From a virus, in the IMG/VR virus record IMGVR_UViG_3300046318_000097, positions 1 through 21,364 of that record: 21,364 bases of DNA, one strand, 5' to 3'. Both the position numbers and the translations under genes were made by a program. Position 1 is the stretch's first letter; every line of letters starts with the position of its first letter. Below are positions 8,274-21,364 of the stretch, piece by piece. Under the pieces are notes generated by a model. That model searched no databases, was not told the DNA's origin, and saw only the letters and a list, made by a program, of their open reading frames with translations.

Positions 8274-10616
8274 ATGGCAATCGTACTCAAAGACCGAGTT
8301 AAAGAATCTACCGCTGTTATCGGCACGGGCACGGCTACATTGCTTGGCGCCGCTGCTGGCTATCAGGCGTTTTCTGTCATCGGTAACGGCAACACCACAT
8401 ACTATGCAATCGTCGACACAGAGAACGGCGCGTGGGAAGTCGGTACAGGCACTTACAGCACAACAGGCCCAACGTTGACACGTACGACTGTGTTTGAATC
8501 CAGCAACGCTGGCGCACTTGTTGATTTTGCCGCGGGTAGCAAAGACGTGTTCATCACGTACCCAGCCGAGCGTGCAATCTACGAAGAGCCGTCTGGCAAC
8601 ACTCTGATTGACGGTGGCCCGATTACAGTTATCGGCGCAGGTGTTACTGGATACACCAGCTTCTCCGCTGTGTTGGCTGAGATGTACGGTGACGTGGATT
8701 CTTTTGCTCAGATTTACGCGCAGAACTACAACGACGGCGCAAGCGCTTCCGGTGACTTTGTTGTTTACCGCAATGACGCTTTGGATGACTCGGGCAAGTT
8801 CGTTGACATGGGTATCAACAGCTCAAACTACTCATCCGTCGATTACCCTATCTTCACGCCCGGTTCGGCCTATTTGTTCAACGATGGTGGTGAGCTGTTT
8901 GTCGGTAGCGCCACAGATGATTTGGTGTTGTTCGCTGGTGGTGTTGATACGACCGATAAAGCAGCGCGCATTGACAAGACAACAAAGGCATTGAATACCA
9001 TAGCCGATGTGAATGTTGGTGGCGCTCTGGATGTGACCGCCGCAGCTACGTTTGGCTCAACTGTTACCCTTGATGCAGACCCGACTATGGCGCTCGAAGC
9101 AGCGACCAAGCAGTACGTCGACAATGCGGTGTCAAACGGATTCCACGTTCACACCCCCGTGCTTGTGGCCACTACAGGCAACCTGACCGCTACATACAAC
9201 AACGGCACTGCTGGTGTTGGCGCTACCCTGACAAACTCTGGCACGCAAGTGGCCCTTGAGATCGACGGCGTGTCGATGTCCACAAACGACCGCGTGCTGG
9301 TGTGGCAACAAAGCACGCAAGCACAAAACGGCATCTACGTTGTAACTACGGTCGGCAGCGGCGCAACGAACTGGGTGTTGACACGTTCCTCGGATGCTGA
9401 CACCTACGTGCCGCAATCAGATACTGGTCTTGGTGGTGGGGATTACTTCTTCGTTTCCAGCGGAGATACAGAAGGCTTTTCTTCATTTGTGTGCACAAAT
9501 GATGGTTCGATCACCTTCGGAACCACGGCGATTACGTTTGCTATCTTCAGCACAGTGCCTTCATATAACGTCGTGGCACCGTTGGACCTAACAGGTAACA
9601 CCCTGTCTTTGGCGGGTACGGTTGCCGCTACAAACGGTGGTACCGGTACAGCCACAGTGACAACCGGCGATCTGCTCTACGGCTCGGGCACAAACACGTG
9701 GGGCAAGCTGGCCGCAGGTGCAGCGTACAAGTCTTTGGTTATGAACGGCGCGGGCACTCAAGTCGAGTGGAACGCTGTTGCCTTAAATCAATCAGGTTCC
9801 GTGTCTGGCGCTCTACCAGCTACAAACGGCGGCACAGGTCAAAGCACATATAGCGTGGGCGATCTGCTGTATTCCGGCGTAACTGATACTCTCAGCAAGC
9901 TGGCCGGAAACACAACCACGACCAAGAAGTTCTTGGTTCAGACTGGTACAGGCTCAGCCTCTGCTGCCCCCGTGTGGGATACAGTATCTGGTTCTGACGT
10001 GTCAGGTAACATTTCAGGTAACGCCGCAGGTGCTACGAATGTCCTTGGTGGCGCAGCCAACCGCATCCCATACAACACTGGGGCGAACACAACTTCATTC
10101 ATTACAGCGCCTGTTTCGTCAAGTACTTATTTAGGTTGGAACGGCTCCGCTTTTGTGTGGTCTGCGACCACAGGCCCAACAGGCCCAACAGGCCCGACAG
10201 GCCCAACAGGCCCAACAGGTACCGCAGGTAGCCCAGGACCGACAGGTAGCCCCGGACCCACTGGCGGACCCGGCCCAACGGGACCAACAGGCCCAACAGG
10301 TAGCCCCGGCCCAACGGGACCAACGGGACCAACAGGCCCAGCGGGGCCTGTGTTCGGTACATTCACGGGTAACTTGAACGGTTCAAGTCGAGGGTCCGGT
10401 GGTACATATACAAACAGTACAGGACGTCCTCTGGGGGTGTATATTTCTGGCTCAAACGCGCCTTCGAACGGTAGAATCAACGTCAACATCGGTGGGCAAA
10501 CGTTCTATATGAACGGGTACGGCTCGAATCCGGGATGCTTCTGGATTGTGCCTACAGGTGCTACCTATAGCTTTACGAACGCAGGTGCCTCGGTCCAGTA
10601 CTGGAACGAGTATTAA
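8274..10616 (+). CDS. Long tail fibre with collagen-like stalk and C-terminal tip domain
   Basis: The 780-residue protein starts [20 protein letters not shown], a common fibre N terminus that anchors to the tail. Residues ~280-430 form a shaft module ([38 protein letters not shown]) familiar from phage fibres. Two repeats of about 63 residues begin with ATNGGTG (near 453 and 515) and carry GDLLY...KLA. Residues 634-692 are nineteen Gly-X-Y triplets plus Gly-Pro, mostly Gly-Pro-Thr, a collagen-like triple-helix stalk. The last ~85 residues ([31 protein letters not shown]) form a tip paralogous to that of the second fibre at 11472, likely the receptor-binding end. AAGGAATAAAA precedes the start. 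Confidence 0.85.
10173..10349 (+). repeat. Collagen-like Gly-X-Y repeat (19 triplets plus Gly-Pro)
   Basis: The DNA is a degenerate 9-base repeat around GGCCCAACA. Triplets are mainly Gly-Pro-Thr, with three Gly-Ser-Pro, one Gly-Gly-Pro, one Gly-Thr-Ala and one Gly-Pro-Ala. Thr fills most Y positions; Pro is at Y in four triplets. The third bases vary enough (CCA, CCG, ACA, ACG, ACT) that the repeat is not a recent exact expansion. Confidence 0.9.
10359..10613 (+). other. C-terminal tip domain of fibre 1 (paralogous to 12321-12584)
   Basis: Residues ~696-780 of the first fibre align without large gaps to residues ~284-371 of the second: TGNL, SSR, TYTNS(T/S)GRP, VSG-like strand, F/YxxxN, (I/V)VPxGxTY and QYW(N/Y)E(Y/F). 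Both end within two residues of that QYW. Identity is highest at the start and end and lowest in the centre, as expected for a receptor-binding tip under diversifying selection. Confidence 0.65.
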
Positions 10617-10633
10617 CAACAGGAATCAAACAA

Positions 10634-10915
10634 ATGAAACACTTCCTATCCCCCACAGGCCAGCTTTTTGCATACAACCCAGATGGCACTCAAGACCACT
10701 TGATTCCAGAGGATTACACCCCCGTTGCACCCGAGAATGTGGCGGCTGAACGCGCTCGAATCGAACGCGAGGCTTTGGATTTACTTAGCTTTTCTGAACG
10801 CCGAGCTATGGCATACCCGCTAATTTCGGACCAACTTGACACCATTTTCCACAGCGGTCTTGAGGTGTGGCGTGCGCAAATTCAAGCGGTTAAAGACCAG
10901 ATACCGAAAGAGTGA
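10634..10915 (+). CDS. Tail-fibre assembly-like small protein
   Basis: This 93-residue protein starts MKHFLSPTGQLFAYNPDGTQ and ends with a conserved phrase, YPLISDQLDTIFHSGLEVWR then IQAVKDQIPKE, that recurs in small proteins encoded directly after phage tail fibres. By position and pattern it may chaperone fibre folding or trimerisation, or be a minor fibre subunit. It contains a helical, Arg/Glu-rich middle (NVAAERARIEREALDLL). ATG 10634 has a weak AGGAATC site. The stop is followed two bases later by the next start, so it shares a message with the fibre and the hydroxylase-like enzyme. Confidence 0.6.
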   Translation: MKHFLSPTGQLFAYNPDGTQDHLIPEDYTPVAPENVAAERARIEREALDLLSFSERRAMAYPLISDQLDTIFHSGLEVWRAQIQAVKDQIPKE

Positions 10916-10916
10916 C

Positions 10917-11462
10917 ATGTCCCACCTACCTATCTGGTACTTAGGCGAAATCCCAACGTCGATGTGTGACACGATGTTGGGTGAGTTTGTGGGTGCTAAC
11001 CCGCAAGTCGCTACTATGGGTAAAACCGGCGAGACGCAAGATAAAGTAAACAGAGACACCGCTGTTGTTTTTGCGCCGTTTGACCATTGGCTCTCCACGC
11101 ATTTTTCGGAGCTTGCAAACATAGCGAACGAAACCTGTGAGTGGAAATACTTTGTAACACAGAGAGAAGCCATTCAGTTTGCCACGTACGGTGTCGGGCA
11201 ACACTACAACTGGCATACGGACACATTTACGCTTTCGGGAAAAGAGTACGACCGCAAAATAACTGTCGTGTGTCTGCTGAATGACCCAACCGAATTTGAA
11301 GGCGGGGAGTTTGAGCTTCGGTTGTATAACGAATACAAAGCGCCTTTGAAGAAGGGTTCGGTTATCGCGTTCCCTTCGATACTTGAACACCGCGTTACAC
11401 CTGTGACAAAAGGTGTGCGCTACTCCGCAACAATGTGGCTAAGCGGCCCTCGGTTTCGTTAA
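10917..11462 (+). CDS. 2-oxoglutarate/Fe(II) dioxygenase, prolyl 4-hydroxylase-like
   Basis: The 181-residue product carries the full signature of the 2OG-Fe(II) oxygenase superfamily. Iron ligands are H100 and D102 (YNWHTDTF) and H158 (SILEHRVTPVTKG), and R168 (GVRYSATMWL) should bind the 2-oxoglutarate carboxylate. EFEGGEFELR (126-135) and KKGSVIAFPS (145-154) are typical of prolyl 4-hydroxylase-like members such as the PiuC group. Known members use O2 and 2-oxoglutarate to hydroxylate side chains, releasing CO2 and succinate. I chose ATG 10917, two bases after the previous stop, because longer in-frame versions run back over the upstream gene. The gene lies 568 bases after a collagen-like repeat, so the fibre is a candidate substrate; host proteins are an alternative. 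Confidence 0.85.
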   Translation: MSHLPIWYLGEIPTSMCDTMLGEFVGANPQVATMGKTGETQDKVNRDTAVVFAPFDHWLSTHFSELANIANETCEWKYFVTQREAIQFATYGVGQHYNWHTDTFTLSGKEYDRKITVVCLLNDPTEFEGGEFELRLYNEYKAPLKKGSVIAFPSILEHRVTPVTKGVRYSATMWLSGPRFR

Positions 11463-11471
11463 GGAAATAAC

Positions 11472-12587
11472 ATGTCCAGCACCTACTCACCCGATCTACG
11501 CATCGAACTCATCGGCACCGGCGACCAAGCAGGTGTTTGGGGGAACACAACCAACACAAACCTCGGCACGTTGATGGAAAACGCCGTTGCGGGCTACACG
11601 TCTGTCAGCATTATTGCTTCCCCGCAGGCTTTGACAGCCAACGATGGTGCTTTGGATGAGGCTCGTTTTGCGGTTATTGCTTTGACAACAACTACCGCTG
11701 CCAACTTCACGGTCTGTATCCCGCCAAACTCAAAGCTGTACACGTTCTACAACGCCAGCTCGTACATCGCCACCATCACCAACTCCACGGTGAAAAACGG
11801 CATCATTGCAAGCGGTGGTACAACCGTAGCCATCCCTGCGGGCAAAACCATGTCCGTGTGGTCTGACGGTACGAACGTGGCGCAACAAACAAACCACTTC
11901 ATCTCACCGACGTTGGCTTCGCCGACAATGACTTCACCGACAATGACGACCCCCGTTTTGGGTACCCCTGCGTCGGGCACCATGACTAACGTGACAGGCT
12001 TACCGCTGACTACTGGTGTTACAGGTACATTGCCCGTCGCCAATGGTGGGACAGGGGTTACCACAAAGACAGGCACGGGTAACGTGGTGCTGTCAGACAG
12101 CCCAACACTGGTCACACCGGCTCTCGGCACCCCCTCTTCGGGTACCTTGACAAACTGCACGTTTCCAACGCTGAACCAAAACACGACAGGTACTGCCGCG
12201 TTTGCGACTAACCCTGCTGGTGGTGGTTCGTTTATTACGTCATCAAACATAGGCAGTCAATCGGTAACATACGCAACAACTGCTGGGTCGGCTAACGCAG
12301 CGCCCACTGCTGTTAGTAACTCTGGCTCGTTGACAGGTAACTTGGCTAACTCAAGTCGTTTCTTAGACACAACCTACACAAACAGTTCAGGCCGCCCACG
12401 CGTTATCACTGTTAGCGGAAACAACAACACAAACGCCGGTAACAGTGTTTATGTTAACGGTGCATACTTTTCTGCCATCAACCACTGGGGTGCCGCCGCT
12501 GGTTTTACGTTTGTTGTGCCAGACGGAGGTACATACTACGTGGATAGCTCAGGCTTCGGTCTTCAATACTGGTACGAATTTAGCTAA
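11472..12587 (+). CDS. Second tail fibre with tip paralogous to the first
   Basis: The 371-residue protein starts MSSTYSPDLRIELIGTGDQA followed by GVWGNTTNTNLGTLMENAVA, a well-known N-terminal anchor domain of phage tail fibres. Residues ~1-140 include a small beta domain (NFTVCIPPNSKLYTFYN). A low-complexity shaft follows (SPTLASPTMTSPTM, LGTPASGTMTN and LGTPSSGTLTN, PVANGGTGVTTKTG). The C-terminal ~88 residues form the tip shared with the first fibre (TYTNSSGRPRVITVSG, FVVPDGGTYYV, QYWYEFS). AAGGAAAT lies before ATG 11472. It probably gives a branched or alternative receptor-binding fibre. No collagen-like region is present. Confidence 0.8.
   Translation: MSSTYSPDLRIELIGTGDQAGVWGNTTNTNLGTLMENAVAGYTSVSIIASPQALTANDGALDEARFAVIALTTTTAANFTVCIPPNSKLYTFYNASSYIATITNSTVKNGIIASGGTTVAIPAGKTMSVWSDGTNVAQQTNHFISPTLASPTMTSPTMTTPVLGTPASGTMTNVTGLPLTTGVTGTLPVANGGTGVTTKTGTGNVVLSDSPTLVTPALGTPSSGTLTNCTFPTLNQNTTGTAAFATNPAGGGSFITSSNIGSQSVTYATTAGSANAAPTAVSNSGSLTGNLANSSRFLDTTYTNSSGRPRVITVSGNNNTNAGNSVYVNGAYFSAINHWGAAAGFTFVVPDGGTYYVDSSGFGLQYWYEFS
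12321..12584 (+). other. C-terminal tip domain of fibre 2 (paralogous to 10359-10613)
   Basis: The DNA at 12333-12358 (ACAGGTAACTTG...TCAAGTCG) resembles 10365-10390 in 19 of 26 positions, and the protein similarity extends to the C termini of both fibres. This supports duplication or recombination of one tip module followed by divergence. Confidence 0.6.
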
Positions 12588-12593
12588 CCCGAT

Positions 12594-13328
12594 GTGGACC
12601 CAATCAGCCTTCTCCTCATGGCGCAAAGTGCAGTCGGTGCTATCCGTGCCGGTTGTCAAATGCTGTCTGAGGGTAAGGCAGAAATTGGTAAGTTTAAAAA
12701 ACAAGTTGAAGGTGGAGTAGCAGATGCAAAAGCCATCTTCAAAGAAGTCACCGGCATCTGGGGGTGGATTCAGTCTTTGTTCTCCCCTGAGCAAGCCAAA
12801 CCAAGGGAGTTGGGCGTTCCCGCTACAACCGTTGCAGAAGCCAAGCCTGTGGCGAAAAAGACAAAGTCCGAGCCGGAGCCCGAACTAAGTTACGAGGAGT
12901 TTCAAGCGCGTGCAGTGCACGACATCTGCGAAAATTTGAAGGTCTATTTTGAAGCCATGAGACACCTCAAAGCACACTGCCGGGAACTTGAACAACAAGC
13001 TCTGACCACAGAGAAAGTTGCCGATAGTGCGATTGACCGCATCGAGATTCAGTGGCAAATGAATCAGCTGTCCGCGCAGCTGAAGCAGGCCATGATTTGG
13101 GGTACGCCGGAAGAGTTAGGTCTTGGTGATATGTACCGAGACTTCCTCGCCAAGTACGACGAGATTTTGGAAGAGCAAGAGGCTGCTCGTGAGGTGAAGC
13201 TCAAGAAAGAACGGAACAGCGCATGGCGACTAGAGCACCGCAAAGAAATTCTGGTAGCCAAGCTGGGGTACGTAGTGATCGTGTCAGTGGTAGCCCTGTG
13301 GATGACGGGGTTGTATTCCGTTCTATGA
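12594..13328 (+). CDS. Tail-anchored membrane protein at the start of the lysis cluster
   Basis: The 244-residue product starts at GTG (MDPISLLLMAQSAVGAIRAG), has a Lys/Glu-rich middle with probable coiled coil (LKAHCRELEQQALTTEKV, FLAKYDEILEEQEAAREVKL), and ends in a single hydrophobic helix (residues ~224-244, GYVVIVSVVALWMTGLYSVL). There is no signal peptide, so it should be anchored by its C terminus with the bulk in the cytoplasm. I recall similar proteins (DPISLL...GWIQSLF) in related phages but no function. ATG overlap with the next gene (ATGA at 13325) and the endolysin downstream suggest a lysis or envelope role. The GTG has no clear ribosome site; ATG 12618 is an alternative. Confidence 0.6.
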   Translation: MDPISLLLMAQSAVGAIRAGCQMLSEGKAEIGKFKKQVEGGVADAKAIFKEVTGIWGWIQSLFSPEQAKPRELGVPATTVAEAKPVAKKTKSEPEPELSYEEFQARAVHDICENLKVYFEAMRHLKAHCRELEQQALTTEKVADSAIDRIEIQWQMNQLSAQLKQAMIWGTPEELGLGDMYRDFLAKYDEILEEQEAAREVKLKKERNSAWRLEHRKEILVAKLGYVVIVSVVALWMTGLYSVL

Positions 13329-13504
13329 AGGAGTTCTGGTACTGGGTGCTCATCGTCACGTTTCTGATCGCTTTAAACTTCGCGACGTGGCTCGGACTGC
13401 TCCACATGGACAAGAAACTAAAACAAACAGAAGCGCTCGTGCTTCGCTTGGAAGATAAGGACAAGAAAAATGACCGCAGAAAAAAAGACCCTGACCCGGA
13501 GTGA
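13325..13504 (+). CDS. Small single-pass membrane protein of the lysis cluster
   Basis: This 59-residue peptide begins MKEFWYWVLIVTFLIALNFA and has one transmembrane segment at about 4-26. A strongly charged tail follows (DKKLKQTEALVLRLEDKDKK then DRRKKDPDPE), probably helical. I chose ATG 13325 because it forms an ATGA overlap with the previous stop; longer versions would run inside that gene. The layout of N-terminal anchor plus coiled tail resembles a minimal inner-membrane spanin subunit or a pinholin-like regulator, but there is no diagnostic motif. It overlaps the next gene by 35 bases, as nested lysis genes often do. Confidence 0.6.
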   Translation: MKEFWYWVLIVTFLIALNFATWLGLLHMDKKLKQTEALVLRLEDKDKKNDRRKKDPDPE

Positions 13505-13973
13505 GCTTGAAGTCATCATCAAGCGCCGCGCTGCGGTGCTCTTGATTGTCTTAGCCGCGCTGGTAGCCGTTAATAGCTTTTTCAAAGACAGCAACTCCGG
13601 CCGCATCATGAAGGACATCATCGCTGCCAACAACCAGTGGGCGTGGTATCAAGCCAAGAACGTTCGCGCGGCAATCTACAAAACCACCGCTGACTTAGTC
13701 GCCGACAAGAAACTGTCCCAGTTGTACCATGCAGAAGCGCAGCGCATGAATGACGACATGGACAGCATCCGCGCTAAGGCGCAGGCCCTGGAGTTGGAGC
13801 AGAAGTTGCTTAGCACCAAAGCTCCGTACTACACCTACTCGGCCATGCTCATGCAGCTTGGTCTGGTCTTGTCCACCGCAGCTATTCTTGCGGTGTCTAT
13901 GCCCTTGTTCTACTCTGCCGTGGCCGTTGGCTCGTTTGGTGTCGGACTGTTTATTGTTGCTTTAGGAGTTTGA
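13470..13973 (+). CDS. DUF4337-like membrane protein
   Basis: The 167-residue product has a basic N terminus, a transmembrane helix at ~21-37 (AAVLLIVLAALVAVNSFF), and a helical domain with NNQWAWYQAKNVRAAIYKTT (~54-73) and a coiled segment (EAQRMNDDMDSIRAKAQALE). Two more helices follow at ~124-141 and ~145-165. The NxQWAWYQAK signature plus this topology matches what I know of DUF4337 (bacterial membrane proteins of unknown function). It could have been recruited from a host. ATG 13470 has AAGGAC at 13457-13462, and its start lies within the previous gene. A lysis-timing role is possible from context only. Confidence 0.65.
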   Translation: MTAEKKTLTRSELEVIIKRRAAVLLIVLAALVAVNSFFKDSNSGRIMKDIIAANNQWAWYQAKNVRAAIYKTTADLVADKKLSQLYHAEAQRMNDDMDSIRAKAQALELEQKLLSTKAPYYTYSAMLMQLGLVLSTAAILAVSMPLFYSAVAVGSFGVGLFIVALGV

Positions 13974-13974
13974 T

Positions 13975-14451
13975 ATGTTGCCAGTCGTTATGTCTATTGT
14001 GTCTGGCTTGATCGCCAACAACATGCCCAAGGTGGCGGATGCCGTCATCGAGAAGGGCGTCGATTATGTGCAGGAGAAGATGGGCATCACCCTCAAGCCT
14101 GAGCACGAAGCCACCAAAGAGGATTACGAGAAGTGGAACGCAGAGGCAGCCAAGCACGATGAGTTCATGGCTGAGCTCGACGAGAAGTCTCGCCAGCGCG
14201 CCACGGACATGCAGTTGAAAGCCATGGAGTCGGATGACCCGTTCGTGCGTCGCTTCCTGTATTACTTCATCGGCCTGTGGTCTACCTTCTCGGTGATCTT
14301 CATCCCTTGCTTGATCTGGGTGCCCATCCCTGAAAACAACACACGCTTCGCTGACACCATCCTCGGCTACGTGTTGGGTACGGTCATCACCGGCATGTTC
14401 GCTTTCTTGCTTGGTTCTAGCCAAGGCTCACGCAACAAGGACAAGAAATGA
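13975..14451 (+). CDS. Putative holin (3TM/GTA-holin-like)
   Basis: The 158-residue product has an N-terminal hydrophobic segment (LPVVMSIVSGLIANN), an amphipathic charged domain (KHDEFMAELDEKSRQRATDM), and two transmembrane helices at ~94-115 (FLYYFIGLWSTFSVIFIPCL) and ~127-147 (ILGYVLGTVITGMFAFLLG), then a basic tail. The layout resembles the holin family of gene-transfer agents and phages with 3 membrane segments. TAGGAG at 13963-13968 supports ATG 13975. It is joined to the GH19 endolysin by an ATGA overlap (14448-14451), the strongest argument that it controls endolysin release. Confidence 0.65.
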   Translation: MLPVVMSIVSGLIANNMPKVADAVIEKGVDYVQEKMGITLKPEHEATKEDYEKWNAEAAKHDEFMAELDEKSRQRATDMQLKAMESDDPFVRRFLYYFIGLWSTFSVIFIPCLIWVPIPENNTRFADTILGYVLGTVITGMFAFLLGSSQGSRNKDKK

Positions 14452-15107
14452 TTCCAACCAGAGAAATGCTGGCGGCCGTCAAGGTCAAAGACCCTGATAA
14501 GTGGTTGCCGCACATCATCAAGACATGCGCTGAGTTCAACATTGATACCAGGGAACGCATCGCCGCGTTCCTGGCGCAGACTGCCCACGAGTCGGCCGGC
14601 TACACCATGCTGGAGGAGAACCTCAATTACTCCGACGTGACCATGGCTGCTGTGTGGCCTGCTCGCTTCGCGGTGAAGGGTCCCGACGGTAAGTACAAGT
14701 TGGACGAGAAGGGGAAGAAAGTCCCCAACGCCTTTGCCAAGGCACTGCACCGCAAGCCAGAAGCTATCGCCAACGCCGTGTACTCGAACCGTATGGGCAA
14801 CGGCACCATTGAGTCCGGCGAGGGGTGGGCACACCGTGGCATGGGTTTGAAGCAACTCACCGGCAAAGACAACCACAAACGCTGCGGCGACTACCTTGGT
14901 GTTGATCTGGTGGCTCACCCAGAGCTGCTGCTTGAGCCTGAGTATGCGGCTCGTTCCGCCGGTTGGTTTTGGAAGACAAACAAACTCAACAGTTTTGCTG
15001 ATGCCAGCGACATCAAAGGCATGACGCAGGTAATCAATGGTGGCTTGATCGGCTTGCCTCAGCGCCAAGCGCTATATGATGCCTGCACTGGACAGTGCCG
15101 AGCCTAA
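14448..15107 (+). CDS. Endolysin, glycoside hydrolase family 19 (chitinase-like lysozyme)
   Basis: The 219-residue protein matches GH19 lysozymes, which cut the peptidoglycan glycan chain at lysis. The catalytic Glu is likely E48 in AFLAQTAHESAGYTMLEENL; E57 or E58 are nearby acidic candidates. The substrate-cleft signature RGMGLKQLTGKDNHKRCGDY spans 130-149, and VINGGLIGL (195-203) is the conserved C-terminal Asn-Gly segment. There is no cleavable signal peptide, so it needs a holin. The length is normal for a single-domain GH19 endolysin with no separate cell-wall-binding domain. Start and stop are tightly joined to the holin-like gene. It probably acts in the periplasm of a Gram-negative host. 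Confidence 0.85.
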   Translation: MIPTREMLAAVKVKDPDKWLPHIIKTCAEFNIDTRERIAAFLAQTAHESAGYTMLEENLNYSDVTMAAVWPARFAVKGPDGKYKLDEKGKKVPNAFAKALHRKPEAIANAVYSNRMGNGTIESGEGWAHRGMGLKQLTGKDNHKRCGDYLGVDLVAHPELLLEPEYAARSAGWFWKTNKLNSFADASDIKGMTQVINGGLIGLPQRQALYDACTGQCRA

Positions 15108-15123
15108 GTGAGAAAATCAGACC

Positions 15124-17070
15124 ATGCCTTTACAGAAACTCCAATTCCGCCCCGGTGTCAACCGTGAAGGCACGACCCTAGCAAACGAGGGCGGCTGGTT
15201 CGAGTGCGACAAGATTCGCTTCCGTTCCGGTTACCCTGAGAAGTTGGGCGGCTGGATTAAAGACACTGGCATCGCTGAATCCACCCTGCAACCCCCCGCT
15301 GGCTCGTACTGGGGTGTGGCCCGTTCGATGTGGAATTGGGAGTCTCTGGCCGGTAACAACTATTTGGGTCTTGGCACCAACCTGAAATACTACATCCAGA
15401 ACGGCCCTGATGGTCTGTTCTATGACATCACACCCCTTCGCGATACTGCGACAGGTGTAACAAATGCGTTCACTGTAACCAACGGTTCTGCTGTAGTGAC
15501 TGTTACGGATACAGCACATGGTGCACAAACGGGTGACTTTGTGACCGTTACCTATGTCGGCGGTGCGATCGGCGGTATGCCCGCGGCTGCCATCAACGGG
15601 GAACACCAGATCACGTATATCAGTTCCAACCAATACAGCTTCGTGGCCTCATCTGTAGCCACAGGCAACGCTGGGCCAACGGGAACTGCGGATTTTGCCT
15701 ACCAAATTACAACTGGCTCAGCCACATACACCATTGCTAACGGCTGGGGTGCAGGCGGCTGGGGTGGCTCGAACACGGGTGGCGCATCCACGGGTTGGGG
15801 TGAGGCTGCATCTACTGGCGGTATTGGCCAGCAGCTTCGTTTGTGGAGCCAGTCTAACTACGGTGAAGACTTGATCTTCAACCCTCGTGGTGGCGGTATC
15901 TATTACTGGTCCGTTAACGCAAACCCAAACATCTTTGACCGTGGCGCTCAGATCACACCGTCAACCACAAGCGACCCAACGTGCCCGACGATTGCCAACT
16001 TGGTCATGGTGTCAGATTCTTCTCGCTTCGTGATTGCCATGGGCACAAACGACCCGTCTGGTACGTTGTTCCCTACTACACAAGACCCGTTGCTGATTCG
16101 TTGGTCTCAGCAAGAAGACTACCAGATGTGGACCCCTGCGGCCACAAACCAAGCAGGTGACTACCGCCTGAGCCGAGGCTCTGAGATCGTTGCTGCGCAG
16201 CAGACACGACAAGAAATTTTGATCTGGACAGATGCTGCTATCTACTCTATGCAGTACCTTGGCCCACCCTATGTGTGGGGCTTCCAGATCATGGGCGACA
16301 ACATCTCCATCGCCGGGCCAAACGTGGTCTCGGTGGCGAACAACGTCACCTATTGGATGGGTACCGACAAGTTCTACATGTACTCTGGTCGTGTTGAAAC
16401 GCTGCCATGCTCCTTGCGTCAGTACGTTTTCCAGAACATCAACATGGAGCAGTCGTACCAATTCTTCTCCGGCACGAACGAAGGCTACAACGAGATTTGG
16501 TGGTTCTACTGCTCGGCCAACAGCCTTGTGGTGGACCGCTACGTGGTGTTCAACCACCTCGAACGTACTTGGTACTACGGCACTATGGAGCGCACTGCTT
16601 GGTTGGACAGCCCGTTGCGTGATGTCCCTATGGGTGCTGGCTACAACGGTCAACTGCTGTACCACGAGACCGGAAATGATGATGGCACAACAACCCCCGC
16701 ATCGCCGATCGTGTCTTTCTGTCAGTCTTCGGACTTCGACATTGGTGATGGCCACAACTTCGGCTTGGTGTCTCGCATCATCCCTGACGTGACATTCGAC
16801 GGCTCCGATGTGATGGACCCAACGGTTGTGTTCACTGTGCGCCCACGCCAAAACCCAGGTGCAAATTACGGCCGTTCAGATAGTCCTGACGTTGTCAGCG
16901 CCAACAACTACATTGGTCAGCGCACGTACAACGTGCAGCAGTTCACCCAATACGTCTATGTCCGCGTGCGTGGTCGCCAGATGGCGTTTCGTGTGGGTTC
17001 TAACGAGTTGGGTGTGGCATGGCAGCTTGGCGCTCCTCGCCTTGATGTGCGTCCCGATGGTCGGAGATAA
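15124..17070 (+). CDS. Large tail structural protein, nozzle-like (P22 gp10 / T7 gp12-type)
   Basis: The 648-residue product starts MPLQKLQFRPGVNREGTTLA and NEGGWFECDKIRFRSGYPEK, an N-terminal signature of large tail-hub or nozzle proteins in podovirus-like genomes. Residues ~113-190 look like an inserted Ig-like beta domain (VVTVTDTAHGAQTGDFVTV). A Gly/Trp-rich loop follows (GWGAGGWGGSNTGG, ~205-230). The rest has repeated beta blades (LRLWSQSNYGEDLIFNPRGG, TNQAGDYRLSRGSEIVAAQQ, VYVRVRGRQMAFRVGSNELG), as in a beta-propeller. By family analogy it would form the tail nozzle that closes the DNA channel. Ribosome site before ATG 15124 is weak. Confidence 0.65.
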   Translation: MPLQKLQFRPGVNREGTTLANEGGWFECDKIRFRSGYPEKLGGWIKDTGIAESTLQPPAGSYWGVARSMWNWESLAGNNYLGLGTNLKYYIQNGPDGLFYDITPLRDTATGVTNAFTVTNGSAVVTVTDTAHGAQTGDFVTVTYVGGAIGGMPAAAINGEHQITYISSNQYSFVASSVATGNAGPTGTADFAYQITTGSATYTIANGWGAGGWGGSNTGGASTGWGEAASTGGIGQQLRLWSQSNYGEDLIFNPRGGGIYYWSVNANPNIFDRGAQITPSTTSDPTCPTIANLVMVSDSSRFVIAMGTNDPSGTLFPTTQDPLLIRWSQQEDYQMWTPAATNQAGDYRLSRGSEIVAAQQTRQEILIWTDAAIYSMQYLGPPYVWGFQIMGDNISIAGPNVVSVANNVTYWMGTDKFYMYSGRVETLPCSLRQYVFQNINMEQSYQFFSGTNEGYNEIWWFYCSANSLVVDRYVVFNHLERTWYYGTMERTAWLDSPLRDVPMGAGYNGQLLYHETGNDDGTTTPASPIVSFCQSSDFDIGDGHNFGLVSRIIPDVTFDGSDVMDPTVVFTVRPRQNPGANYGRSDSPDVVSANNYIGQRTYNVQQFTQYVYVRVRGRQMAFRVGSNELGVAWQLGAPRLDVRPDGRR

Positions 17071-17072
17071 AT

Positions 17073-17399
17073 ATGTCACTGAAGAACGTAGTAGCACCAC
17101 GATTACCTGCTGCGCCTGTCGAGTACAGCCAGCAGTTCATGGACCAGCTCACAAGTATTTTGCGTTTGTACTTCACTCAGCTGGATAACGCATCTCCAAT
17201 GACGGCTGCATCACAGGGCGTAGGTACTGACACCGTTATTTCTGGGCTGACGTTTGCTGCACCAGACCCTACCGACCGTCGTCTTTTCAAGATTAGCTTG
17301 CCGACAGATGCAGACTTTGCAAACCTGCGTTCGGGCGACGTGTACTACGACACTTCTGGTGGCGCAGCCACTAGCTATCCTCTCCGCATCAAGGCATAA
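17073..17399 (+). CDS. Small conserved virion protein
   Basis: The 108-residue product starts MSLKNVVAPRLPAAPVEYSQ followed by QFMDQLTSILRLYFTQLDNA, a signature I know from small proteins located next to the nozzle-like gene in related phages. The C-terminal part is beta-type (YYDTSGGAATSYPLRIKA). ATG 17073 lies two bases after the preceding stop, with GGAG inside the end of that gene (17064-17067), so translation is coupled. It is a likely tail or tail-tip component; function unknown. Confidence 0.65.
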   Translation: MSLKNVVAPRLPAAPVEYSQQFMDQLTSILRLYFTQLDNASPMTAASQGVGTDTVISGLTFAAPDPTDRRLFKISLPTDADFANLRSGDVYYDTSGGAATSYPLRIKA

Positions 17400-17400
17400 T

Positions 17401-17433
17401 ATGTCCAACCCCCAATTTACGAGGCACCTATGA
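17401..17433 (+). CDS. Ten-codon mini-ORF coupled to the next gene (candidate leader)
   Basis: ATG 17401 to TGA 17431-17433 encodes MSNPQFTRHL. AAGG at 17391-17394 gives a plausible ribosome site with 6-base spacing. The stop overlaps the start of the next gene as ATGA at 17430-17433, so ribosomes ending here could reinitiate. It may be chance, but the arrangement is that of a coupling leader. Confidence 0.3.
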   Translation: MSNPQFTRHL

Positions 17434-18827
17434 GCCTGCAACACGCTGCACAACACCTTGCATCAAAAGGCCGAGGCCCTGACCGCACCCTAGTTCACAT
17501 GGCGCCTCGTGAGGTGGCCGGTCTTCAAGCCTTGGCTAAAGCCCATGGTGGCTCATTGACGATCAACCCCGAGACAGGTCTGGCCGAAGCCGGCTTTCTC
17601 TCCAACATCTTGCCAACGCTGATTGGTGTGGGTTTGACTGCTGCCACCGGTGGCGCAGCCGCCCCTTGGATGATCGGTGCTGGCGTTGGCGGTCTTCAAG
17701 CAATGCGTACCGGCAGCCTCAAAGAAGGTCTCTTGGCCGGCATGGGTGCGTACGGTGGGGCTGGTTTGGCTAGTGGTTTCACATCCCTCGGCGCTCAGGC
17801 GGGAACCGATGCTGCGGCAACAGAAGCCGCGGCCGCCGGCGAAGCAGCTGCCACATCCGCAGGGGAGCAAGCGACCCAGCAAGCCGCGCAGCAACAGGCT
17901 CAACAGCAAGCCATGGCACAGGCCGGCACTCAATCAGCCGCAGAGTCAGCGCGTCTGGCCGCTACCGCACCCCCAACACTTAGTCCAGACATCATGGCGC
18001 AGTCGGCGCGTGAGTACGCTGCCGATACGGCAGGTACCGCAGCATCCCCGTTCAGTGCTGCTACACAGCAAACCATGGCTAACCCAATGCAAGCTGGTTT
18101 GCAGGCGGCTGCCAATAACCCAAGTGCCTACGTAAATCAAATGGGTGGTGGAGCAAGTTTGGCCAAGACGGGGTTGACAGCTCTTTCACCAGCAATCGCC
18201 GGCGCGATGACCCCTCAGATGGCAATGCCTGGCGAAGAAAAGTACACCGGCCCGTTGAGTCGTTACAGCATGTCTGAGGACTACAAACCTTACGACCAGC
18301 AGCAACCCAACCCGTACTACCAAGCGCAGTACCGGAACTACCAGTACGCCGGCGGCGGCCCCATCGAGCAGATGTCGAACGCAAATGCGGTCGGCGCAAA
18401 CACAGGTTTCCCCGGCGCTGATGTACGCCAGGGTGCGTATGCTACACCATACCAAACACCTATGAGCCAAAACGTGGTTCAGGGCACAGCCGACACCGGT
18501 GTGAATAGTATGACTGGCGAAATGAACTTTGCTGGCGGTGGTGGCGTCTCTGATCTAGGCGGCTACTCCGATGGTGGTCGTATGCTTAAGGGCCCTGGTG
18601 ATGGCATGTCAGATTCAATCCCCGCTCAAATTGGCGGCAAGCAGCCAGCTCGTTTGGCTGACGGTGAGTTTGTGATGCCCGCAGACGTGGTGTCTCATTT
18701 AGGTAACGGCTCAACAGAAGCAGGCGCACGCCAGCTGTACAAGATGATGGACCGTATTCGCTCGGCCCGTACTGGCAAGAAAAAGCAAGCGCCCGAAGTA
18801 AATCCTAGGAAGGTCATGGTCGCATGA
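17430..18827 (+). CDS. Probable internal virion / ejection protein (Ala/Gln-rich)
   Basis: The 465-residue product has an N-terminal signature LVHMAPREVAGLQALAKAHG and SLTINPETGLAEAGFLSN (22-59) known from large phage virion proteins. A Gly/Ala-rich hydrophobic region at ~56-117 (LPTLIGVGLTAATGGAAAPW) could insert into membranes. A Gln/Ala-rich helical stretch follows (ATQQAAQQQAQQQAMAQAG). The C-terminal third carries YAGGGPIEQM, FAGGGGVSDLGGYSDGGRML and the conserved block GKQPARLADGEFVMPADVVS, LGNGSTEAGARQLYKMMDRI. Size, composition and position after the nozzle gene fit a protein stored in the head and ejected with DNA. ATG 17430 has GAGG at 17421-17424. A tape-measure-like role is less likely. 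Confidence 0.6.
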   Translation: MSLQHAAQHLASKGRGPDRTLVHMAPREVAGLQALAKAHGGSLTINPETGLAEAGFLSNILPTLIGVGLTAATGGAAAPWMIGAGVGGLQAMRTGSLKEGLLAGMGAYGGAGLASGFTSLGAQAGTDAAATEAAAAGEAAATSAGEQATQQAAQQQAQQQAMAQAGTQSAAESARLAATAPPTLSPDIMAQSAREYAADTAGTAASPFSAATQQTMANPMQAGLQAAANNPSAYVNQMGGGASLAKTGLTALSPAIAGAMTPQMAMPGEEKYTGPLSRYSMSEDYKPYDQQQPNPYYQAQYRNYQYAGGGPIEQMSNANAVGANTGFPGADVRQGAYATPYQTPMSQNVVQGTADTGVNSMTGEMNFAGGGGVSDLGGYSDGGRMLKGPGDGMSDSIPAQIGGKQPARLADGEFVMPADVVSHLGNGSTEAGARQLYKMMDRIRSARTGKKKQAPEVNPRKVMVA

Positions 18828-19285
18828 ACTACACCATCACGCTAGAAAAGTTCACGGAAAACTACAGGGAGCTTGAGCCCCTGTATCGTCAGCACTACGC
18901 TGAGATGACTGAACGCCTAGCTGGTGAGGGTGTGTTCTACAGCCCGTACAACCCCCGTTTGGACAAGTACGGAGAAGCGTGCCAGGGTGGTTGGCTTTTG
19001 AATTTTGTCGTGCGCCATGAGGGCGTCGCGGTCGGTTACAGCAATGTGTACTTGACCAACGACATGCACAACAACGACTTGATTTGTCAAGAAGACACGG
19101 TGTTCGTCCTAAAAGAGCACCGCAACGGAATCGGCAAGAAGCTGGTTCAGTGTGTAGTTGAAGAGCTGCGCTCACGTGATGTGAAGCGGCTTATGGTGTC
19201 GGCAATGACCGACTTACGTGTGGCTAAACTCTGGAAGCGAATGGGCTTCAAAGAGATGGCGACGCAAATGATTTACGAATTTTGA
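18824..19285 (+). CDS. GNAT-family N-acetyltransferase
   Basis: The 153-residue protein has the GNAT fold pattern. Motif A includes a beta strand TVFVLKEHR (92-100) and the acetyl-CoA pyrophosphate loop RNGIGKKL (100-107), with a following helix VQCVVEELRSR and motif B near LMVSAMTDLRVAKLWKRMGF (123-142). Known members move an acetyl group from acetyl-CoA to an amine; the acceptor cannot be read from sequence. It overlaps the preceding gene by ATGA and lies between two virion-protein genes. It may acetylate a virion or small basic phage protein, or act on a host target after injection; both are inferences. Confidence 0.8.
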   Translation: MNYTITLEKFTENYRELEPLYRQHYAEMTERLAGEGVFYSPYNPRLDKYGEACQGGWLLNFVVRHEGVAVGYSNVYLTNDMHNNDLICQEDTVFVLKEHRNGIGKKLVQCVVEELRSRDVKRLMVSAMTDLRVAKLWKRMGFKEMATQMIYEF

Positions 19286-19293
19286 GGTGACCT

Positions 19294-20388
19294 ATGTGCG
19301 GTTCTAGCGCTCCATCCGGACCATCAACGTCGACAACACAAACGTCGAACATCCCCGAATACGCACGTCCGTACGTAGAGACGATGCTGGGTGCGACCCA
19401 GAAACAGTTGTTCGACACCAAACAAAACGTGGACCCAACAACCGGCCAGACCTCGACAGAGATCACCGGCATGAAAGGCTACACGCCCTACAGCACGGAT
19501 ATGAACCAGTACTTTGCTGGGGCCAGCCCTATGCAGGAGCAGTCATACCGCGGTGCGGCAAATCTGGGTCCAGCACAGCAGACCATGGATGCGTCCAACA
19601 TCGCCACGCAGGCAGGCATTGGCGCCTTGAACACAAGCTACAACCCGATGATGGCTGGCTCACAGGACTTCGGCAACCGTGCGGCCGCTCAATACATGAG
19701 CCCATACGCCATGCAGGCGCTGCAACCGCAGCTCCAAGAGCAAGCACGTGCATCGCAGATTCAAGGTCAGCAACAAGCGGCAGAAGCCGTGGGTCGTGGC
19801 GCGTTCGGCGGAAGCCGTGACGCTCTCATGCGCGCGGAGCGCGAGCGCAACCTGGGCATCCAGCAAGGCAACACAATCAGCACCGGATTGAACACGGCGT
19901 ACAACAACGCCATGCAGCAGTTCAACCAAGACCAAGCGCGTGCAATGCAGGCGCAGCAGGCCAACATCGGCCAGCAACAGTTCGGTGCCAACCTCGGCAT
20001 CCAAGGTCTTCAAGCCGCCAACCAAGCTGCGGGCACTTTGGGTACCTTGGGTCAGAATCAGTTCGGCCAAGAGCAAGCCGCCATCGGTTTGCAGAACCAG
20101 CTCGGCACACAGCAACAAACGCTGGAGCAGAACAAGATCAACCAAGCCATCCAGAACTATGCGACTGGCCAGCAGTGGGGCATGCAGCAGCTCTCCAACA
20201 TGAACGCCATGTTGCGCGGCTTGCCTTTGCAGACCACATCGACTCAGACATACCAAGCGGCGCCTTCAACTGCGTCTCAGCTGGCTGGTCTGGGTACTGC
20301 TGCCTACGGCGTAAGCAAGATGGCCGGTGGTGGTTCCGTTGGTGCTCCGTCTGGCCTGGCCGACTTGGCAATCTACAACATGGGTTAA
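19294..20388 (+). CDS. Probable internal virion / ejection protein (Gln-rich coiled coil)
   Basis: The 364-residue product starts MCGSSAPSGPSTSTTQTSNI and PEYARPYVE, a recurring phage N terminus (MCG plus Ser/Thr-rich tail). Its centre holds QGQQQAAEAVGRGAFGGSRD followed by ALMRAERERNLGIQQ, which I associate with internal virion proteins. Long Gln/Ala/Asn-rich helices follow (AMQQFNQDQARAMQAQQANI, QFGQEQAAIGLQNQLGTQQQ). The end carries MAGGGSVGAPSGLADLAIYN. There is no signal peptide. GAGGTGA at 19284-19290 precedes ATG 19294. Like its neighbours it probably enters the cell with DNA and lines a trans-envelope channel; this is inferred. Confidence 0.6.
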   Translation: MCGSSAPSGPSTSTTQTSNIPEYARPYVETMLGATQKQLFDTKQNVDPTTGQTSTEITGMKGYTPYSTDMNQYFAGASPMQEQSYRGAANLGPAQQTMDASNIATQAGIGALNTSYNPMMAGSQDFGNRAAAQYMSPYAMQALQPQLQEQARASQIQGQQQAAEAVGRGAFGGSRDALMRAERERNLGIQQGNTISTGLNTAYNNAMQQFNQDQARAMQAQQANIGQQQFGANLGIQGLQAANQAAGTLGTLGQNQFGQEQAAIGLQNQLGTQQQTLEQNKINQAIQNYATGQQWGMQQLSNMNAMLRGLPLQTTSTQTYQAAPSTASQLAGLGTAAYGVSKMAGGGSVGAPSGLADLAIYNMG

Positions 20389-20397
20389 GGAAGCGAC

Positions 20398-21364
20398 ATG
20401 CTCAACGTCAATCAGATCACCTCGCAGCTGGCCAAGATGCCAGACAACGCGTTGCAGCAATATGCAACGATGCACAAAGCCGACCCATACATGTTGGCCC
20501 TGACTATTGCTGAGTCCAACCGCCGCAAAGAGATGCGCAGTGCCGCGCAGGGTGCGCAAGGCGCGATGCCTCAACCCAAGGTGGCCGACCAAGCCATCGC
20601 TGGCATGTCTCCACAACAGCTCCCTGAGAACGTTGGTATTGGCGCACTGCCTGCTGACAACATGAAGGGCATGGCCGGCGGCGGCATCGTGGCGTTTGAA
20701 GAAGGTGGTCACGTGCCCGGCTACGCAGGCAACACAGACGGCAGTCTGGTGTACGACCCAGTGTCAGGCATGCCTTTGTTCAACTCTGGCGCTGAGCCTA
20801 CTGGCCCAGAAGTCGAGGGCGGCGCAACCTTTTGGGAGCGTATGGGTCTTGGCAACGCAGCCAACCGCAAGGTGTTGGAGCAGGTAGAGCGCGACGCAGC
20901 CGCTCGCAAAGCAGCCACTAAAGCAGTTGATACCACCAAAAAGCCTGAGACAAAAGTAGCCGACATTGACACCAAACCGTCGCCTACTCCTGAGATCAAA
21001 AAAGGTCTGGGCGCCACGGCTGCCGGCCAACAATCAGGTCTTTCAGGCGGCGCAGGTGGAGCTGGCACATACAAGCCAAGCACGCTGGCCGACATGATGA
21101 AGGAAGTCAACCCTGAAATCGAGAAGATGAACGCTGAAGATCGTGCTGCCATGGACCCGTTCCGCAAGCAGTTTGAGTCGGAGCGCAGCGACTTGGCCAA
21201 GCGTAAGGAGTCCAACAAGGCAGAAGCTATCTTGGCTGCCGGCCTCGGCATGCTGTCGGGTAACTCTCGCTACGCGTTGCAGAACATCGGCGCGGGTGCC
21301 CAGCAGGGCTTGACCTCGTTGAAGGAAGCCAACCGCTTAGACGACGCAGCCAAGCGCGCGCTCA
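20398..21364 (+). CDS. Probable internal virion / ejection protein (3' partial)
   Basis: ATG 20398 follows AAGGAAG; the frame stays open to the window end, giving at least 322 residues. It starts MLNVNQITSQLAKMPDNALQ, carries MAGGGIVAFEEGGHVPGYAG (near residues 92-111), a motif typical of large phage virion proteins, then charged helical sequence (RKVLEQVERDAAARKAATKA) and a Gly/Ala-rich segment. The visible C-terminal part (SKAEAILAAGLG-like: NKAEAILAAGLGMLSGNSRY) has a short amphipathic or weakly hydrophobic helix. Position after two similar proteins supports a third ejection protein. A lytic enzyme domain may lie beyond the window but cannot be seen. Confidence 0.6.
   Translation, partial: MLNVNQITSQLAKMPDNALQQYATMHKADPYMLALTIAESNRRKEMRSAAQGAQGAMPQPKVADQAIAGMSPQQLPENVGIGALPADNMKGMAGGGIVAFEEGGHVPGYAGNTDGSLVYDPVSGMPLFNSGAEPTGPEVEGGATFWERMGLGNAANRKVLEQVERDAAARKAATKAVDTTKKPETKVADIDTKPSPTPEIKKGLGATAAGQQSGLSGGAGGAGTYKPSTLADMMKEVNPEIEKMNAEDRAAMDPFRKQFESERSDLAKRKESNKAEAILAAGLGMLSGNSRYALQNIGAGAQQGLTSLKEANRLDDAAKRAL

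Follow-up and report, generated by a model that had tools for sequence, protein, structure and literature searches.

The IMG/VR record IMGVR_UViG_3300046318_000097 (21,364 bases, analysed here in its entirety and referred to as the window) is probably an incomplete fragment of a podovirus genome and carries, on the plus strand, a gene for a tail fibre with a collagen-like stalk (fibre 1, 780 amino acids (aa), positions 8274 to 10616), closely followed by a gene for a 2-oxoglutarate (2OG)-Fe(II) oxygenase of 181 aa (10917 to 11462). The oxygenase is probably, though by no means certainly, a phage prolyl hydroxylase with the collagen-like stalk of fibre 1 as its substrate, most likely modified at the proline in the Y position of the Gly-X-Y triplets (Y-Pro). 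The coupling of collagen and oxygenase is well supported by comparison of gene neighbourhoods, and the identity of Y-Pro as the modified residue is less well supported than this coupling. The initial annotation had put forward a phage-encoded pair for making and modifying a triple-helical stalk; genomic comparisons bear this proposal out, and from them we infer the hydroxylation itself.

The stalk consists of 20 uninterrupted Gly-X-Y triplets (10173 to 10352, plus strand), in the order of five GPT, a stretch of 18 residues, three GPT, GSP, three GPT, GPA and GPV, so that the run first described holds and its earlier count of 19 (10173 to 10349) does not. Four triplets have proline at Y, three GSP and one GGP as originally listed, and each is followed by GPT. 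The Pfam Collagen family (PF01391) matches fibre 1 with E=1.3e-7 and 31.7 bits against a curated cut-off of 27.2, PHROG tail fibre families match it too, and the chance expectation for such a run, calculated from the 13.6% glycine of the remaining fibre, is about 3e-15.

The association of the two traits was assessed in four differently drawn samples, based on relatives of the enzyme, on loci of the stabilisation protein, on loci with the N-terminus of fibre 1, and on loci with collagen patterns. Nearly all IMG/VR relatives of the enzyme with at least 53% identity have a GPT-type collagen within a few kb, while none of the full-length relatives below 50% identity has one at this distance. The stabilisation-protein sample comprised 80 loci retrieved blind to both traits and counted if at least 6 kb upstream were present, with L009 (5.9 kb upstream) added by hand because it was positive. 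The initial annotation had staked the pairing on an enrichment of the enzyme next to collagen fibres, and the two traits do coincide: among the 47 same-backbone loci, window included, 9 have both, 38 have neither and none has one alone, and the figures become 7, 38 and 0 when the window and L009 are removed. The backbone tree shows 5 changes of each trait, and its independent supported pairs are concordant in 4 of 4 cases. Of the loci selected by the N-terminus of fibre 1, 4 have both traits, counting the window, 1 has only an oxygenase, a divergent one, and 44 have neither (Fisher, 2.4e-5). Lastly, in 336 loci drawn by collagen DNA patterns, a sample whose counts take in related contigs, 63 same-strand oxygenases lie within 3 kb downstream of the collagen (636 kb) vs 3 within 3 kb upstream (674 kb), and only 10 are located farther off, in 1.24 Mb. 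L032 is an apparent exception located at a contig edge, and L022 was rejected as a collagen-free exception, as its contig stops inside the homologue of the second fibre, where its near-twin L027 has collagen.

The nearest backbone relative of the window, L202, is 88% identical over 12591 to 20715 and has neither collagen nor oxygenase. It retains the N-terminal part of fibre 1 (8358 to 9988, plus strand, 75% DNA identity), where the identity stops just short of the collagen, to return where fibre 2 begins; the exchanged block thus spans the collagen, the C-terminal tip of fibre 1 (10353 to 10613, plus strand), a small open reading frame (ORF) and the oxygenase. Linkage alone could suffice for this exchange, and the movement of the block as a unit, together with a total of only about five independent changes, is what would be expected of a single exchangeable cassette in which collagen fibre and oxygenase are linked physically and not functionally. 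Yet we judge such hitchhiking to be improbable: linkage alone would not retain the enzyme where the collagen is in the other fibre gene, which is the arrangement in L020, L027, L031, L035 and L328, where the collagen belongs to the homologue of fibre 2 (371 aa, 11472 to 12587, plus strand, without collagen in the window) instead of fibre 1 and the oxygenase is kept. In L022, likewise, fibre 1 is without collagen and the oxygenase is present. Moreover, the enzyme is retained with unrelated tips and N-termini, since the sequence that follows the collagen falls into 15 unrelated tip groups in 33 loci with oxygenases of the same close clade, and the 25 of these loci with a usable N-terminus represent 5 N-terminal families. 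The same downstream order also recurs with divergent oxygenases in unrelated phages, and hitchhiking leaves unexplained the difference in collagen motifs described below. The oxygenase tracks the collagen and not the tip, the N-terminus or a particular fibre gene.

The stalk motifs suggest which residue would be modified. The stretch Gly-x-Pro-Gly-Pro-Thr (x = Ser, Ala, Pro or Gly) occurs in 23/23 collagens beside close relatives of the enzyme and in 8/63 GPT collagens without a nearby oxygenase (p=1.7e-14, ignoring relatedness). In the reverse direction, an oxygenase is found within 3 kb downstream of 26/62 collagens selected by the motif vs 4/45 GPT-only collagens (p=1.6e-4). Y-Pro accounts for a median of 10% of triplets in the 23 homology-selected close-clade loci vs 0% in the 63 GPT collagens (Mann-Whitney, 1.5e-7), and the Y-Pro triplets of close-clade loci are GSP (50), GAP (23), GPP (20) and GGP (9), with GPT following 89 of about 100. 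Within the motif-selected set, Y-Pro content does not differ with oxygenase status, as is to be expected of a set chosen on this very feature. Two loci considered as Y-Pro-free exceptions, L018 and L047, were discarded as such, for they contain a GPPGPT stretch below the run-length cut-off. The same oxygenase clade also adjoins the collagens of L003, L005, L006 and L374, which consist mainly of Gly-Tyr-Ser, Gly-Phe-Ser and Gly-Ile-Ser (hundreds in L003) and include a few GPTGSPGPT stretches.

The earlier objection that most triplets have proline at X, when animal collagen hydroxylase prefers it at Y, is right about the GPT majority and loses force otherwise, since the motif that marks the oxygenase-associated collagens holds a Y-Pro and since x-Pro-Gly is the classical site of collagen prolyl 4-hydroxylases (C-P4Hs), the consensus of the animal prolyl 4-hydroxylases (P4Hs). 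The window stalk has four x-Pro-Gly sites and in this respect offers the substrate site of a C-P4H. A modification elsewhere on the stalk, at the X-position proline of Gly-Pro-Thr or at threonine, is unlikely but deserves weight: GPT is the commonest triplet near the enzyme (57% vs 30%) and X-position proline is raised as well (70% vs 44%), the P4H of Bacillus anthracis hydroxylates (PPG)n at both X and Y prolines with Y favoured (PMC8968730), and relatives of the oxygenase in L100, L198 and L138 adjoin collagens with almost no Y-Pro. These Y-Pro-poor pairs, however, sit on other branches of the enzyme tree, and x-Pro-Gly-Pro-Thr is a far better discriminator than GPT content between collagens with and without the oxygenase. 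The idea that 4-hydroxyproline at X stabilises Gly-Hyp-Thr peptides, attributed to Bann and Bachinger 2000, is given no weight here.

The oxygenase starts at the ATG at 10917; the TTG at 10836 given by a mechanical ORF list was set aside, as it would create an overlap with the preceding small ORF. The protein matches PF13640 (E=1.5e-20, 74.4 bits against a curated cut-off of 27) and phrog_61 (E=1.8e-39). The active-site residues are intact, in agreement with the initial annotation: H100-T101-D102 (codons at 11214 to 11222, plus strand) provides the HxD ligands of Fe(II), with H100 and D102 invariant in 52 relatives, and H158 (11388 to 11390), the third ligand, and R168 (11418 to 11420), the residue expected to bind 2OG ten positions further on, are both at least 90% conserved in the same set. 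The protein therefore combines the features of a 2OG-Fe(II) oxygenase, namely the HxD...H triad, a basic residue about 10 positions past the distal histidine and a predicted double-stranded beta-helix. An AlphaFold model built from the 52-sequence alignment (pLDDT 92.7) matches prolyl hydroxylases best, with Z-scores of 19.3 for the P. putida P4H (4iw3), 18.8 for PHD2, 18.6 for vCPH of Paramecium bursaria chlorella virus 1 (PBCV-1), 18.2 for an algal P4H with (Ser-Pro)5 and 17.6 for PiuC. The predicted fold is prolyl-hydroxylase-like and singles out no subfamily, because many matches lie within one Z unit.

The best of these structural matches, the P. putida enzyme, modifies EF-Tu, and 2OG oxygenases are frequent in structural regions of phage genomes without collagen, which would suit an enzyme that is merely carried in the tail module and acts on a non-fibre substrate, either a host protein such as EF-Tu or a nucleic acid. 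Such a substrate has little probability in our view, and it leaves unexplained that the enzyme occurs only alongside collagen in phages with the same backbone and that it is kept while the collagen switches fibre. Collagen is absent within about 5-6 kb of the 2OG oxygenases of S-SCSM1, S-SM1, P-SSM7, Melnitz, HTVC023P, PhiXhv-12, ACG-2014a and HTVC008M; these eight phages rule out that collagen accompanies phage 2OG oxygenases in general, and the link is therefore confined to particular clades. In Pelagibacter phage HTVC023P and in S-SM1, arrays of two to four 2OG oxygenases adjoin collagen-free structural or fibre genes; one of those of S-SM1 is annotated as leprecan (prolyl 3-hydroxylase), and HTVC023P has the stabilisation protein in common with the window and similarly placed oxygenases.

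Several observations weigh against a prolyl hydroxylase devoted to phage collagen. First, the closest sequence matches of the enzyme are PKHD-type hydroxylases, the iron-uptake factor PiuC included (E=5e-7 over residues 90-175, in the catalytic domain), and the solved structures nearest by sequence are again of the PKHD type (3dkq, 3.3e-8), followed weakly by the B. anthracis P4H (E=0.018). The full-length PKHD architecture of about 225 aa is not matched, as the window enzyme of 181 aa stops at the catalytic domain. Second, the 2OG-binding residue is lysine in animal, algal and chlorovirus C-P4Hs and arginine in PHD2-type enzymes, and the window has Arg168, as in the PHD2 and PKHD types, rather than the lysine of the C-P4H/vCPH type; the enzyme is therefore not classed as a C-P4H, and the claim is that it would work like one. 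Third, cultured cyanophages and pelagiphages carry 2OG oxygenases of the same large family near collagen-free structural genes, and many phage collagens are without a detectable enzyme. Fourth, the independent events are few, and 4 concordant pairs give a sign test of p=0.125, too few for significance.

A second type of phage collagen bears independently on the action of the oxygenase on the stalk. The cultured Synechococcus phages S-PRM1 (MH629685), S-CAM9 (KU686205, 27859-40413) and S-8S53 (OQ504982) encode a large tail fibre with 55-59 triplets that have lysine at Y. Behind the fibre gene lie a small ORF, a pair of 2OG oxygenases and a protein of roughly 615 aa, the last of which contains GT25 (PF01755, 1.4e-28), PLOD glycosyltransferase (PF25342, 7.6e-47) and lysyl-hydroxylase-like domains, matches human COLGALT1 (procollagen galactosyltransferase 1, 4e-20) and human LH3 (6e-33), and resembles the mimivirus lysyl hydroxylase at its C-terminus (1e-8). 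In databases, these Synechococcus phage proteins are labelled "hypothetical" or "2OG oxygenase". LH3/COLGALT-like proteins occur in 31/51 Lys-collagen loci vs 0/107 Pro/Thr-collagen loci (p=1e-19, ignoring relatedness); the GT_PLOD and GT25 domains were found only in Lys-collagen phages and in neither the window nor the close-clade loci. The modifying enzyme follows the modifiable residue, and the collagen reading of the window is therefore more credible. On balance, we lean towards modular collagen-maturation kits in phages, in which stand-alone prolyl hydroxylases go with Pro-type stalks, and trifunctional galactosyltransferase/glucosyltransferase/lysyl hydroxylase proteins go with Lys-type stalks.

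Virus-borne collagen modification is an already known idea. The window enzyme resembles vCPH (5c5t) in being encoded by a virus and, according to the model, in its fold (Z 18.6 over 161 residues) and HxD...H arrangement, but vCPH belongs to a virus of a eukaryotic alga, shares only about 20% identity with it and has lysine where the window has Arg168. vCPH acts on collagen-like or proline-rich peptides (Eriksson et al. 1999, cited in PMC9301287). The B. anthracis P4H (5hv0) is a bacterial enzyme from an organism with BclA-type Gly-Pro-Thr collagens; it is chromosomal, matches weakly and is unconnected with phage tail fibres. The mimivirus proteins L230 and R699, as well as human LH3 and COLGALT1, hydroxylate or glycosylate collagen lysines and have homologous domains in the Lys-collagen phages, while the window has a stand-alone 2OG enzyme without glycosyltransferase and mimivirus infects amoebae. 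phrog_61 and the PKHD-type proteins (PiuC, 3dkq) are the sequence family of the enzyme, whose remoter members, as sampled through homology, have no adjacent collagen. Collagen-like tail proteins of E. coli O157 prophages share the Gly-X-Y stalks in tail fibres, but the passages of PMC3368898 that present them report no modifying enzyme alongside. Phage collagens are presented as short in a review devoted to the collagens of prokaryotes (PMC8968730), and a survey of Baltic viruses stated in 2022 that it "remains cryptic" what viruses do with prolyl 4-hydroxylase (PMC9301287). No paper reporting a pair of collagen fibre and oxygenase was found in the open-licence literature of PubMed Central. 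Collagen hydroxylases are already known from viruses of eukaryotes; what would be new and surprising is the phage case, with the Lys-type kit beside it.

The gap between collagen and oxygenase measures 564 bases, not the 568 of the initial annotation, which had placed the oxygenase correctly behind the fibre, and it is occupied by the fibre tip and one small ORF for a 93-aa protein (10634 to 10915, plus strand) of phrog_9114, a family of unknown function with a homologue at the same place in L028. The tip of fibre 1 is unlike those of other oxygenase-associated collagens and looks similar by eye to that of fibre 2 (12330-12584); the two may have been exchanged together, because fibre 2 of L202 ends in a different C-terminus. 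The remainder of the window contains structural genes of a podovirus-like phage, including major capsid, P22-type stabilisation and chitinase-like lysozyme proteins, and a GNAT acetyltransferase gene within the structural block (18824-19285). Immediately upstream of the close-clade oxygenase, L027 and also L022 carry a tryptophan-halogenase-like gene (L027:4969-6171, PF04820, 1.8e-30) and a 2OG oxygenase of another type (L027:6192-6830, PF13759). A scan of genome contigs with the oxygenase returned one distant bacterial relative only, and no prophage or host.

In the proposed mechanism, the oxygenase would hydroxylate the Y-Pro of the Gly-x-Pro-Gly-Pro-Thr sites while the collagen-like stalk is still unfolded, and the modification would stabilise or tune the triple-helical stalk that would lie between the virion-anchoring N-terminus and the receptor-binding tip of the fibre. 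The usual description of collagens from prokaryotes and phages is that they need no hydroxyproline for stability; a recurrent, enzyme-specific pairing would, if true, overturn this view for a large set of viruses, assign a function to one class of 2OG oxygenases in aquatic phages, and supply compact enzyme/substrate pairs for the production of hydroxylated collagen in bacterial hosts. With the Synechococcus phages in culture, the general claim is open to ordinary proteomics. It is probable that phages produce collagen of their own and mature it chemically, and, if the kits operate as proposed, their tail fibres would hold hydroxylated and sometimes glycosylated collagen, as animals do.

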